Source of the DNA: Actinomycetota bacterium
GTDB taxonomy: Bacteria > Actinomycetota > Acidimicrobiia > Acidimicrobiales > Ilumatobacteraceae
Length of the DNA: 64,000 nucleotides
Assembly (NCBI GenBank): GCA_027592925.1
Contig: JAQCJO010000001.1
Location: 1 to 64,000 of the forward strand
Reading direction: 5' to 3'
Shown here: piece after piece, positions 18,782 to 45,477 of the stretch
Layout of the letters: each line of letters starts with the position of its first letter
Position numbering within the stretch: the first letter of the stretch is position 1
The notes under the pieces: generated by a model
Told to the model about the DNA's origin: nothing
Databases searched by the model: none
The model's input: only the letters and a program-made list of their open reading frames with translations
Translations under genes and position numbers: made by a program

Positions 18782-18877
18782 GGAGGTGTCCGGGTGCCTG
18801 GTGGACTCCGCCGCCTTCAAAGCGGTTGGGACGAGTAATCCTCGTTCGGCGGGTTCGATTCCCGTCCGCCTCCGCCA
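18782..18877 (+). tRNA. selC: tRNA-Sec (anticodon TCA), CCA encoded
   Basis: GGAGGTGTCCGGGTGCCTGGTGGACTCCGCCGCCTTCAAAGCGGTTGGGACGAGTAATCCTCGTTCGGCGGGTTCGATTCCCGTCCGCCTCCGCCA: 96 nt, TCA in loop CTTCAAA, long variable arm. Confidence 0.93.
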
Positions 18878-40375: not shown

Positions 40376-41092
40376 TTAGGCAGACCACTTAGATTGTCCG
40401 AAGCGATATCCAACGCTGCGCACAGTCTGAATCAAGTTGGCGTGTTCTTCGCCAAGTTTTGCGCGCAAGCGACGAATGTGTACGTCTACAGTGCGTGCTC
40501 CACCGAAATACTCATAGCCCCATACTCGCGACAACAATGTTTCGCGCGAAAACACTTTGCCAGGGTTTTGTGCCAAAAACTTGAGCAACTCATATTCCAT
40601 GTAGGTCAAGTCGAGAGGTTGACCACCAAATGATGCTTGGTATGTCTCAAGGTTGAGAATCAGACCGCCGTATTCGACAAGCGATTCACGGATGCCACGA
40701 ATTTCGGTAAAGAACATGTGGCGCAGGCGCGACTCGAGTTCGCGTGGGTGAAACGGTGACAAGCAGAAGTCGTCAAACAAATCGTCGCGCATTTCGAGGT
40801 CGGCAAGCTGTGAGCCGTTGACGAGCACAAGCACATGTCCGACAGGGTTATCGTTTTTTCGTAGCGAGCGACAAAGAGCCCAACCAGCCTCGGGGTCATC
40901 ATCACACATCACCACTGCACCAGCCCAACCTTCAACGGGCTCGCTCTTTGCTGCGTCATCAGCCGATGAAACAGCCTTCCAGCGGTATCCCGCTAGGTCG
41001 AGTGTGCGCGCCAGATCAATGGACGGCGGGTTTGGAAACACGGCGATCATCTGACCGACAACGTTTTCGTTTGCAGAAGTGCGCGTGTTCAC
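40376..41092 (-). CDS. GlnR-like orphan OmpR-type regulator
   Basis: Winged helix LTYMEYELLKFLAQNPGKVFSRETLLSRVWGYEYFGGARTVDVHIRRLRAKLGEEHANLIQTVRSVGYRFG; degenerate receiver; no adjacent kinase; overlaps glnA. Confidence 0.82.
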   Translation of the reverse strand: MNTRTSANENVVGQMIAVFPNPPSIDLARTLDLAGYRWKAVSSADDAAKSEPVEGWAGAVVMCDDDPEAGWALCRSLRKNDNPVGHVLVLVNGSQLADLEMRDDLFDDFCLSPFHPRELESRLRHMFFTEIRGIRESLVEYGGLILNLETYQASFGGQPLDLTYMEYELLKFLAQNPGKVFSRETLLSRVWGYEYFGGARTVDVHIRRLRAKLGEEHANLIQTVRSVGYRFGQSKWSA

Positions 41093-42435
41093 AGCGAGCG
41101 CAAGTAGCGACCAAGTTCGTATTGGCTGATATGAGTCTTATATGTGCGCCACTCTGCGCGCTTGTTGCGCAAGAACCACTCGAAGATGTGATCGCCGAGA
41201 GCTTCGGCAACAAGGCTTGAGTTTTCCATGACATGCAACGCTTCGTTGAGTGACTGCGGCAATTGATGGATGCTCATTTTCTCGAGCACGTCATTGTCCA
41301 TCTCGAACAAGTTGGCGTCGGCCTCAACTGGCAATTCGTAACCCTCTTGAATGCCACGCAATCCTGCAACCAAGATGACAGAGAACGCGAGGTATGGGTT
41401 GCACGCCGGGTCTGGTGATCGGTATTCGATGCGCGTTGCAGAGTCACTATTGCGCTTTGCGATTGGCACGCGGATCAGGCCGCTGCGATTGTTGCGCGCC
41501 CAGGAGATGTGAACGGGTGCTTCAAAGCCAGGAACAAGTCGCTTATACGAGTTGACCGTTTGGTTGGTGACCGCAGTTATTTCGGCGGCATGGCGTAACA
41601 AGCCGGCCATAAAGCATTTTGCAGTGTCGGACAAGTTGTATGCGTCGTTCTCATCATAAAACGCATTTTGTTCGCCCTTAAACAAAGAAAGATGGAGGTG
41701 CATGCCCGAGCCCTGGATGTTTTCGAGAGGCTTTGGCATAAACGTGGCATGCACGTTGTGCAGTGCTGCGATCTCTTTAACAACAAAACGAAATGTCATC
41801 ACGCTGTCGGCCATTGTCAGTGCGTCGGTGTGTCGCAAATCGATTTCGTGTTGGCTTGGCGCATCTTCGTGAAAGCTGTACTCGACAGGGATGCTCATGG
41901 TCTCGAGCGTGCGAATAGTTTCTTTGCGTAGCGAGCTTGGAATATCGGTTGAAGTGAGATCGAAAAAACCACCTTCGTCGAGCAAGACTGGCGTGTTCGT
42001 GCTATCTGGAGGCGCGAGATAAAAATATTCGATGTCGGGGGCAACGTAGAACGAATAGCCCTGGTCGCGAGCAAGACCAAGATTGCGCTTGAGTACTTGT
42101 CGTGGGTCGCCATCAAACGGTGTGCCGTCCAACTTGGCAATGTCACAAAACACTCGAGCCTCTGCGCCTTTTGCGTCGGCCCATGGAAGAACTTCAAATG
42201 TGTTGGCATCGGGGAGCGCAAGCACATCACTTTCTTGCACTCTGCTGTAACCATCGATTGATGATCCGTCAAACGACATTCCGTCGTTGAGAGCATTTTC
42301 CATTTCGGCAGGGCTGATTGCAAACGACTTGAGGTTGCCGAGCACGTCGGTAAACCACAATCTCACCAGGCGGATGCCGCGCTCTTCTACGGTTCGAAGG
42401 ACGTAATCCTTTTGCTGATCGTGCATGGAAGTCAC
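41089..42435 (-). CDS. glnA: Glutamine synthetase type I family
   Basis: MSFDGSSIDGYSRVQESD, GSGMHLHLSLF, NSYKRLVPGFEAPVHISW, RIEYRSPDPACNPYLAFSVIL. Confidence 0.93.
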   Translation of the reverse strand: MTSMHDQQKDYVLRTVEERGIRLVRLWFTDVLGNLKSFAISPAEMENALNDGMSFDGSSIDGYSRVQESDVLALPDANTFEVLPWADAKGAEARVFCDIAKLDGTPFDGDPRQVLKRNLGLARDQGYSFYVAPDIEYFYLAPPDSTNTPVLLDEGGFFDLTSTDIPSSLRKETIRTLETMSIPVEYSFHEDAPSQHEIDLRHTDALTMADSVMTFRFVVKEIAALHNVHATFMPKPLENIQGSGMHLHLSLFKGEQNAFYDENDAYNLSDTAKCFMAGLLRHAAEITAVTNQTVNSYKRLVPGFEAPVHISWARNNRSGLIRVPIAKRNSDSATRIEYRSPDPACNPYLAFSVILVAGLRGIQEGYELPVEADANLFEMDNDVLEKMSIHQLPQSLNEALHVMENSSLVAEALGDHIFEWFLRNKRAEWRTYKTHISQYELGRYLRSL

Positions 42436-42459: not shown

Positions 42460-42498
42460 TTCAACAGCACCGAGGACCGGATCCTCGGTGCTGTTGAA
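42460..42498. terminator. Perfect 17-bp stem-loop between glnII and glnA (terminator or processing hairpin)
   Basis: TTCAACAGCACCGAGGA-ccgga-TCCTCGGTGCTGTTGAA. Confidence 0.7.
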
Positions 42499-42520: not shown

Positions 42521-43615
42521 CTACTTCTTCTTGGATCCTTTGGCGCCTTTGGACTTCTTTGACGCTGGCTTGGTTGATTTCGCTTTTGCCTTCTTGGCTG
42601 CTGGGGCCTTTACGGCACCACAAACAGTTTCAAGAATCAGACGAGTCACCACGTATGGATCGACGTTGGCGTTTGGACGACGATCTTCGGCGTAGCCCTT
42701 TTTGTCACGAGCGACCTGCCAAGGAATACGTACGGATGCTCCACGATTGGAAACGCCGTATGTGAACTTGTTGTATGGAGCAGTCTCGTGTTTGCCAGTC
42801 AGTCGGCTCTCGATGTCGTGGCCGTAGTTGCTCACGTGTTCCATCACTTTGGTGCCGAGTGCTTTACAAGCGGCTTCAATAGCCGAGTAATCATTGCGCA
42901 TTGCCTTGGTCGAGAAGTTGGTGTGTGCACCAGCACCATTCCAGTCTCCCTTTTGTGGCTTGGCTGCATACGAGATCACTACGTCGTAATCTTCTGCAAT
43001 TCGGTCAAGCAACCAACGAGCAACATACATGTGATCGCTCACCGTGAGTGCGCTTGCTGCACCGATTTGAAACTCCCACTGACCTGGCATTACTTCCGCG
43101 TTTGTTCCCTCGATCATCAGGCCAGCATCCAAACATGCTTGCGTGTGCTCTTCAATAATTGGACGACCAATGACACGACCTGCACCTACGCCGCAGTAAT
43201 ACGGACCCTGTGGTCCTGGCTCGCCGGCCGACTCTGGAAAACCAAGTGGTCGACCATTCATACGCATCATCGTGTATTCCTGTTCGATGCCATAAATCAT
43301 TCCGTGGCTTGCATACTTTGATGCAGCCGCTGCACATGTTGCACGTGTGTTTGTTGGGTGTGGCTTGCCGGTAGTTGCAACCAACACTTCACACAACACC
43401 AAAATATTGTTACCGCCGCGCAAAGGGTCTGGACATGTGAACACTGGGTTCAACACGCAGTCAGATGCATCACCTGTTGCTTGTTCGGTTGACGAGCCAT
43501 CGAAGCCCCAGATCGGTGCAACTTTGACGCCGTTCTTAATAATCTTTGTTTTTGATCGAAGCATCGGTGTTGGTTGATGACCATCGATCCAGATGTATTC
43601 CGCCTGATATGGCAT
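42521..43615 (-). CDS. glnII: Glutamine synthetase type II (eukaryote-like) with Lys-rich C-terminal tail
   Basis: APIWGFDGSSTEQATGDASDCVLNPV, GMIYGIEQEYTMM, GDWNGAGAHTNFSTKAMR, C-terminal KKAKAKSTKPASKKSKGAKGSKKK. Confidence 0.93.
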   Translation of the reverse strand: MPYQAEYIWIDGHQPTPMLRSKTKIIKNGVKVAPIWGFDGSSTEQATGDASDCVLNPVFTCPDPLRGGNNILVLCEVLVATTGKPHPTNTRATCAAAASKYASHGMIYGIEQEYTMMRMNGRPLGFPESAGEPGPQGPYYCGVGAGRVIGRPIIEEHTQACLDAGLMIEGTNAEVMPGQWEFQIGAASALTVSDHMYVARWLLDRIAEDYDVVISYAAKPQKGDWNGAGAHTNFSTKAMRNDYSAIEAACKALGTKVMEHVSNYGHDIESRLTGKHETAPYNKFTYGVSNRGASVRIPWQVARDKKGYAEDRRPNANVDPYVVTRLILETVCGAVKAPAAKKAKAKSTKPASKKSKGAKGSKKK

Positions 43616-43689
43616 TGCATGTCCTTCCGGTTGGGAGAACGGGATTGTGAATTCCGTCCTCAGGTACATCTCTAGTCTCGCAAAATGCC

Positions 43690-43727
43690 GTTTCAATCCC
43701 GTTGCCCAATTGTGAACGGCGTGTGAA
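43690..43727 (-). promoter_or_regulatory. Candidate GlnR operator: four pentamers at exact 11-bp spacing
   Basis: + strand GTTTC(43690) GTTGC(43701) GTGAA(43712) GTGAA(43723); - strand TTCAC-n6-TTCAC-n6-GCAAC-n6-GAAAC upstream of glnII. Confidence 0.65.
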
Positions 43728-43764
43728 GATACGCCAGTCGGATTGCCCCTCTAGCCTGAAGACC

Positions 43765-45477
43765 GTGGCTGCACCGCTCCTCACTCACGCAACTGTGCGC
43801 ATCGGGATGGCCCAGTTCAACCCTGTGGTTGGCGACATTGCATCAAACAGCGCAAGGGTTTCAAGTATTTATGCCGACGCTTTGGCCAGAGGTTGCGATG
43901 TACTGGCGTTTTCCGAACTTGTTCTCACTGGTTATCCACCAGAGGATCTGGTGCTCAAGAGCGGCCTTGTGACAGACAACATTGCGGCACTTCACTCGTT
44001 TGCAGCCACGACATCATCGTGTGTGGCGGTGGTGGGTTTTGTGGACAGAGTGGGCGACGAACTGTTTAATGCTGCTGCAATTTGTGCGCAAGGTCGCGTG
44101 CACGGCGTGTATCACAAACAATTGTTGCCGAACTACAGCGTGTTTGACGAACAAAGATATTTTTCTGCTGGGAAAGATTTTTCGTTGTTTCAAGTTAATG
44201 GTGCGCTGATGGGCGTAACAATTTGCGAAGACATTTGGGAGCCAAGTGGGCCAGTGGCAACGCAAGCACGAGCCGGCGCAGTATTGAACATCAACATCAA
44301 CGGCTCTCCATACCATCGAGGCAAGAGTGGTGAGCGCCAGCAGATGGTGAGTGAACGTGCGCGTGATAACAAATGTGTGATCGCCTATGTCAATCAGGTG
44401 TGTGGTCAAGACGAATTGGTTTTTGATGGCGGCTCAATGTTGTTTGATGCAAGTGGAACATTGCTGGCAAAGTGTGCCCAATTTGTTGAAGAGATCCAGT
44501 TGGTTGATGTTGTCCTGCCACGCGCAGCCGGAGACCCAAGCACAGATATTAAAGAATTGTTGCCGGTTGTTGCGCCGCGCGAAGTTGAATTGATGGGCAC
44601 TATCGCTGCACCAACGAGTGACATTGAACAGATGTATGAGGCACTTGTATTGGGCACGCGCGACTATGTGCGCAAAAATGGTTTTACCGATGTAGTGATC
44701 GGATTGTCTGGCGGCATTGACTCTGCACTTGTTGCAGCAATTGCAGTGGATGCGCTTGGTGCAAAGTATGTGCACGGTGTGTCAATGCCATCTCGTTACT
44801 CGAGTGAAGGCTCGCGCACCGATGCTGCGACACTCGCAAATAACTTGGGCATCGAGATGCAGACGATTTCTATCGAGCCAGCATTTGGGGCGTACTTACA
44901 GATGACTGCCACGAGTTTTGCTGGTCGGCCACAAGACCTAACAGAAGAGAATTTGCAGAGCAGAGTGCGCGGCACCACGCTGATGGCGTTGTCGAACAAA
45001 TTTGGGTGGATGGTGCTGACCACCGGCAACAAGAGCGAGCTCGCCGTTGGGTATTTCACTTTGTACGGCGACTCAGTTGGTGGATACGCAGTCATTAAAG
45101 ACCTGCTCAAAACAAGCGTGTACGAAATGTGTCGTTATATCAACACGAGATCTAAGAAGTCAACAAATCACGAAGTGATCCCTGATGTTGTGATCACGAA
45201 ACCACCGTCTGCCGAACTGCGTCCAGATCAGCGCGACGATCAATCGCTGCCGCCATACGACGTGCTCGATGCAATTCTTGAAATGTACGTAGAGCAAGAC
45301 CAAACTGCCGCTGAGATTATTGCGCTTGGTTTTGACGAAGCACTTGTGCGTCGCATCAGCAGGCTTGTTGACTTGAGTGAATACAAAAGACGGCAAGGAG
45401 CGCCTGGTGTGCGCGTGACATTGAAGGCATTTGGCAAAGATCGACGTCTGCCGATCACTAACGCGTATAGGGGTTAG
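43765..45477 (+). CDS. nadE: Glutamine-dependent NAD+ synthetase
   Basis: N-terminal nitrilase-like domain (MAQFNPVVGDI, FSELVLTGYPPEDL), DVVIGLSGGIDSALVAAIAVDALG. Confidence 0.94.
   Translation: MAAPLLTHATVRIGMAQFNPVVGDIASNSARVSSIYADALARGCDVLAFSELVLTGYPPEDLVLKSGLVTDNIAALHSFAATTSSCVAVVGFVDRVGDELFNAAAICAQGRVHGVYHKQLLPNYSVFDEQRYFSAGKDFSLFQVNGALMGVTICEDIWEPSGPVATQARAGAVLNININGSPYHRGKSGERQQMVSERARDNKCVIAYVNQVCGQDELVFDGGSMLFDASGTLLAKCAQFVEEIQLVDVVLPRAAGDPSTDIKELLPVVAPREVELMGTIAAPTSDIEQMYEALVLGTRDYVRKNGFTDVVIGLSGGIDSALVAAIAVDALGAKYVHGVSMPSRYSSEGSRTDAATLANNLGIEMQTISIEPAFGAYLQMTATSFAGRPQDLTEENLQSRVRGTTLMALSNKFGWMVLTTGNKSELAVGYFTLYGDSVGGYAVIKDLLKTSVYEMCRYINTRSKKSTNHEVIPDVVITKPPSAELRPDQRDDQSLPPYDVLDAILEMYVEQDQTAAEIIALGFDEALVRRISRLVDLSEYKRRQGAPGVRVTLKAFGKDRRLPITNAYRG

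Follow-up and report, generated by a model that had tools for sequence, protein, structure and literature searches.

A predicted two-box GlnR operator upstream of glnII in freshwater Acidimicrobiia

The intergenic region between the divergent genes glnII and nadE in a genome of the Ilumatobacteraceae (contig JAQCJO010000001.1, whose first 64,000 nucleotides are the window analysed here) contains four regularly spaced half-sites. We predict that they make up a pair of GlnR boxes (a1-b1-a2-b2), through which GlnR would switch on glnII when nitrogen is limiting; we assign this reading a probability of about 0.88. The four pentamers phased by 11 bp, described in an earlier note on this DNA, are all in place: GTTTC, GTTGC, GTGAA and GTGAA start on the + strand at 43690, 43701, 43712 and 43723, respectively, with a step of 11 bp each. 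Read on the glnII strand, from 43727 to 43690, the 38-bp element is TTCAC-n6-TTCAC-n6-GCAAC-n6-GAAAC, composed of the half-sites a1 (TTCAC, 43723–43727), b1 (TTCAC, where the published consensus has GAAAC, 43712–43716), a2 (GCAAC, 43701–43705) and b2 (GAAAC, 43690–43694), all on the - strand. Half-site a1 is invariant or nearly so in relatives, and b2 lies at a constant 10 bp from the -10 element. The exact pattern of four half-sites occurs once in the 1.66-Mb genome, and a sequence-only box model built from relatives had the glnII site as its sole match in the organism's own genome (E-value 4.3e-13), a scan that used the glnII-derived model alone, the amtB operator described below having been found by a separate half-site search. 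Scanning the 64-kb window for perfect nTnAC-n6-GAAAC gave 0 matches against 2.4 expected, and thus no further canonical box is present there. The glnII operator represents a familiar type of regulatory switch, in a class of bacteria that has received little study.

Alignment of related glnII upstream regions, which the earlier note had suggested as a check, revealed that all four half-sites are better conserved than their flanks: in 30 regions the half-site columns mostly carry 1.2–2.0 bits, versus mostly 0.0–0.8 bits for the flanking columns. Many of the compared genomes are metagenome assemblies. The operator is present across the family and can be recognised in the majority of the 13 further families of the order that were sampled; it is weak or absent in a few (L099, L104, L111), and a few lineages with adjacent glnII and nadE also have weak boxes (L049, L050). 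At essentially every glnII, b1 is TTCAC (or TTTAC/TTAAC) and not GAAAC.

The gene downstream, glnII, encodes a type II glutamine synthetase (42521–43615, - strand; NCBIfam NF041605, 568.8 bits against a cut-off of 500). Its start is the ATG at 43615 rather than the TTG at 43696 that opens the ORF, which leaves 74 bp between the end of the box and the glnII start. The -10 element GAGACT (43674–43679, - strand), of the form nAnnnT, was assigned from the spacing in relatives: of 72 distinct glnII promoters, 70 have nAnnnT downstream of b2 at a distance of exactly 10 bp. The 72 promoters cover about 19 genera and, being related by kinship, do not represent 72 independent events. TAnnnT occurs at the conserved spacing in none of these 72 promoters, versus all 11 amtB loci that have four half-sites. 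A scan of the region with the sigma-70 consensus found no promoter, in agreement with the absence of a -35 element. Class II activators of the OmpR/PhoB family work by occupying the -35 position. In the mechanism that we propose, two GlnR dimers would bind in tandem to one face of the DNA on the 38-bp operator; as 10 bp separate b2 from the glnII -10 element, GlnR would sit at the -35 position and could recruit RNA polymerase to a -10 element that, with a first base other than T, would be weak on its own. Perhaps this non-TAnnnT element keeps glnII off without GlnR.

A matching operator was found where the earlier note had suggested looking for one, at the promoter of amtB. This gene is present in a single copy in the genome and is preceded by ATAAC-n6-GAAAC-n6-TAGAT-n6-GAAAT, then 10 bp, then TAACTT, i.e. 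with the -10 element at the same distance as at glnII. The arrangement b2-n10-TAnnnT is found at 11 of 11 amtB loci having four phased half-sites; the remaining amtB loci contain fewer half-sites or none that are recognisable. At one of these 11 loci, which belongs to another genus, the sequence is GTCAC-n6-GAAAC-n6-GCGAC-n6-GAAAC and follows the published a-b-a-b order of Streptomyces coelicolor (PMC10704036). A matrix made from three amtB sites matched the glnII box in 60 of 80 regions, a result to which we gave no weight, as the loci were unoriented and the scores low. The same GlnR-like regulator would control amtB via this similar operator.

The candidate regulator is an OmpR-family protein encoded at 40376–41092 (- strand; PF00486), whose gene overlaps glnA by 4 bp. 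By sequence it is closest to GlnR among all solved structures: its best PDB matches are 8hih (GlnR from Mycobacterium tuberculosis) and 8hig and 8hml (GlnR from Saccharopolyspora erythraea), with scores of 135–116 bits versus 83 for RegX3. The winged-helix (OmpR/PhoB-type) DNA-binding domain is likewise closest to known GlnR among solved chains (54–58% identity to the GlnR chains), and Foldseek aligned the structure model, which is of moderate quality (pLDDT 76), to 8hig with TMt 0.92 and 54% identity. A Pfam scan of the protein yielded no receiver match, and in relatives the usual acceptor position of the receiver has no invariant Asp and is mostly C or A, which indicates that the receiver is atypical or degenerate and not of the conventional phosphorylated type. 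The regulator is present in 57 of 61 relatives, where its gene mostly adjoins glnA/glnII by coordinates. The proposal of the earlier note that a GlnR-like regulator acts on glnII is supported by the conservation of the operator, the fixed promoter geometry, the amtB operator and the identity of the nearest solved relative.

How far the influence of the operator extends beyond glnII is uncertain. Between glnII and glnA (type I glutamine synthetase, 41089–42435, - strand; TIGR00653) there is an 18-bp hairpin (42460–42498, - strand), probably a terminator or processing hairpin; most relatives have a strong hairpin here, of a sequence different from that in the window. Such a hairpin between the genes implies that glnII is probably transcribed alone or with attenuation, leaving control of glnA and glnR by the operator uncertain, and we dropped the idea of a single glnII-glnA-glnR operon because of the strong hairpin 3' of glnII in most relatives. 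A GlnR box like that of glnII is missing in front of glnA, where all box scores are negative. The 5' leader of glnII contains a stem-loop of 8 pairs (43635–43661, - strand), located between the predicted transcription start and the Shine-Dalgarno sequence. Within the genus, 5 of the 8 pairs show changes on both sides, with a covariation score reached by none of 500 shuffles; no Rfam family matched, and over the whole family the folding energies of the glnII leader are unremarkable, which makes the stem-loop a local feature. Elsewhere in the window, a tRNA-Sec gene (18782–18877, + strand) suggests selenoprotein synthesis in this small genome.

The earlier note had suggested that control might possibly extend to the divergent nadE, which would link nitrogen status to NAD synthesis. 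nadE (43765–45477, + strand; PF00795 and PF02540) encodes a glutamine-dependent NAD+ synthetase that shares the amidase and synthetase domains of NadE (PRK13981) and is here the divergent neighbour of glnII; it most likely starts leaderless at GTG 43765, 7 bp past its -10 element TAGCCT (43752–43757, + strand). The two promoters do adjoin in the window, where the gap between the operator and the nadE -10 is 24 bp and the edge of the operator lies right beside the nadE -35 position, and they adjoin in many small-genome relatives too; at gaps of 12–14 bp (L007 group, L022, L037–L041) the nadE -35 region would fall within the operator. In the larger genomes of the family, however, nadE lies away from glnII, and none of 32 upstream regions of separated nadE contains the operator: their best box scores range from -26 to -6, as expected of random DNA (median of the null, -13.6), whereas the glnII regions of the same set score 27–57 and every glnII examined there keeps its box (part of the scored set had served to train the scoring matrix, but most of the separated-nadE genomes had not). 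TAGCCT or a close variant precedes the nadE start in the adjacent and in most of the separated cases, from which we conclude that nadE has a leaderless promoter of its own, and in the adjacent arrangement the distance from the box to the nadE -10 drifts anywhere between 12 and 95 bp. Taken together, the missing box at separated nadE, the separate promoter and the drifting gap indicate that the operator belongs to glnII. We found no paper whose title or abstract links actinobacterial GlnR to nadE as a target. nadE was thus rejected as a target on the evidence of the separated gene pairs, and control of both genes by the operator appears improbable. A narrower version is slightly less so but still unlikely, namely that where nadE adjoins glnII, above all at gaps of 12–14 bp, GlnR bound to the operator also prevents or modifies transcription of nadE; in that case genome shrinkage would have coupled NAD synthesis to nitrogen status simply by placing the two genes side by side.

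With glnII as the target of the operator, another question is which protein binds it. The upstream TTCAC pair could be a PHO box bound by a PhoP/RegX3-type regulator, the whole being a composite phosphate-nitrogen site: TTCAC-n6-TTCAC is built like the 11-bp repeats that precede pstS in this family, a RegX3-like regulator is encoded in the genome (L095; family judged by eye), and in S. coelicolor PhoP competes with GlnR at glnA, glnII and amtB (PMC6988585). The family's pstS genes indeed often have upstream GTTCAC repeats with a step of 11 bp (L151, L157, L169 and others), the second always followed by C, and Streptomyces PHO boxes are also 11-bp direct repeats containing TTCAC (GTTCACC). However, glnII reads TTCACA and never GTTCACC, with A in place of C where GTTCACC every 11 bp was looked for, and is followed by the GCAAC and GAAAC half-sites. 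All 13 pst boxes have C directly after the second TTCAC, whereas all 26 distinct glnII boxes have A there; A follows the first TTCAC in 0/13 and 24/26, respectively. Moreover, a PF12849 search of the organism's own 98% complete genome found no PstS above the family cut-off (17 of 17 sampled relatives have one), yet the TTCAC pair at glnII is intact, and the genome has no other convincing TTCAC-n6-TTCAC (3 matches versus 6 for the reversed-pattern control). The motif thus disfavours a PHO box at glnII; a separate phosphate regulator acting there is unlikely, and a composite site very improbable. We give still less credence to the idea that the site mainly serves another OmpR-family regulator, such as an MtrA-like protein. 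In Streptomyces, GlnR boxes are also bound by MtrA (PMC6988585), and the genome encodes four further OmpR-family regulators, but the GlnR-like gene shares synteny with glnII and glnA among relatives, and the same operator architecture recurs at amtB, itself a nitrogen gene. Finally, half-sites this short might be chance repeats in a promoter, an origin that their conservation, the unique genomic match and the constant spacing to the -10 element refute almost beyond doubt.

A GlnR operator at glnII extends the GlnR regulon to freshwater Acidimicrobiia, including the geometry of operator and promoter; we found no paper mentioning GlnR for this group. Two testable regularities emerge from our analysis: the fixed 10-bp gap to the -10 element at both glnII and amtB, and the identity of one base, the A or C following TTCAC, by which the glnII operator can be told apart from the pst boxes of the family. 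Comparison of adjacent and separated gene pairs, as applied here to nadE, can decide to which member of a divergent pair an operator belongs.

The glnA and glnII operators of S. coelicolor likewise consist of four half-sites with an 11-bp step, read on the coding strand of the nitrogen gene, and the consensus for GlnR in that species is gTnAc-n6-GaAAc-n6-GtnAC-n6-GAAAc (PMC10704036). Measured against it, b2 of the glnII operator is exact and a2 (GCAAC) has one mismatch, while in the upstream box a1 (TTCAC) is a known variant, which serves as an a-site at GlnR targets of S. venezuelae (PMC3087709), and b1 (TTCAC) departs from the consensus. In Streptomyces glnA is a standard GlnR target, whereas glnA here lacks such a box; glnRII adjoins glnII there, as the regulator gene adjoins glnII-glnA here. 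The regulator differs from GlnR of M. tuberculosis and S. erythraea in that its receiver is too divergent for detection by Pfam. At S. coelicolor amtB the a2 half-site is at the -35 position (PMC5826061), a placement near -35 that the spacing also implies for the glnII operator described here.
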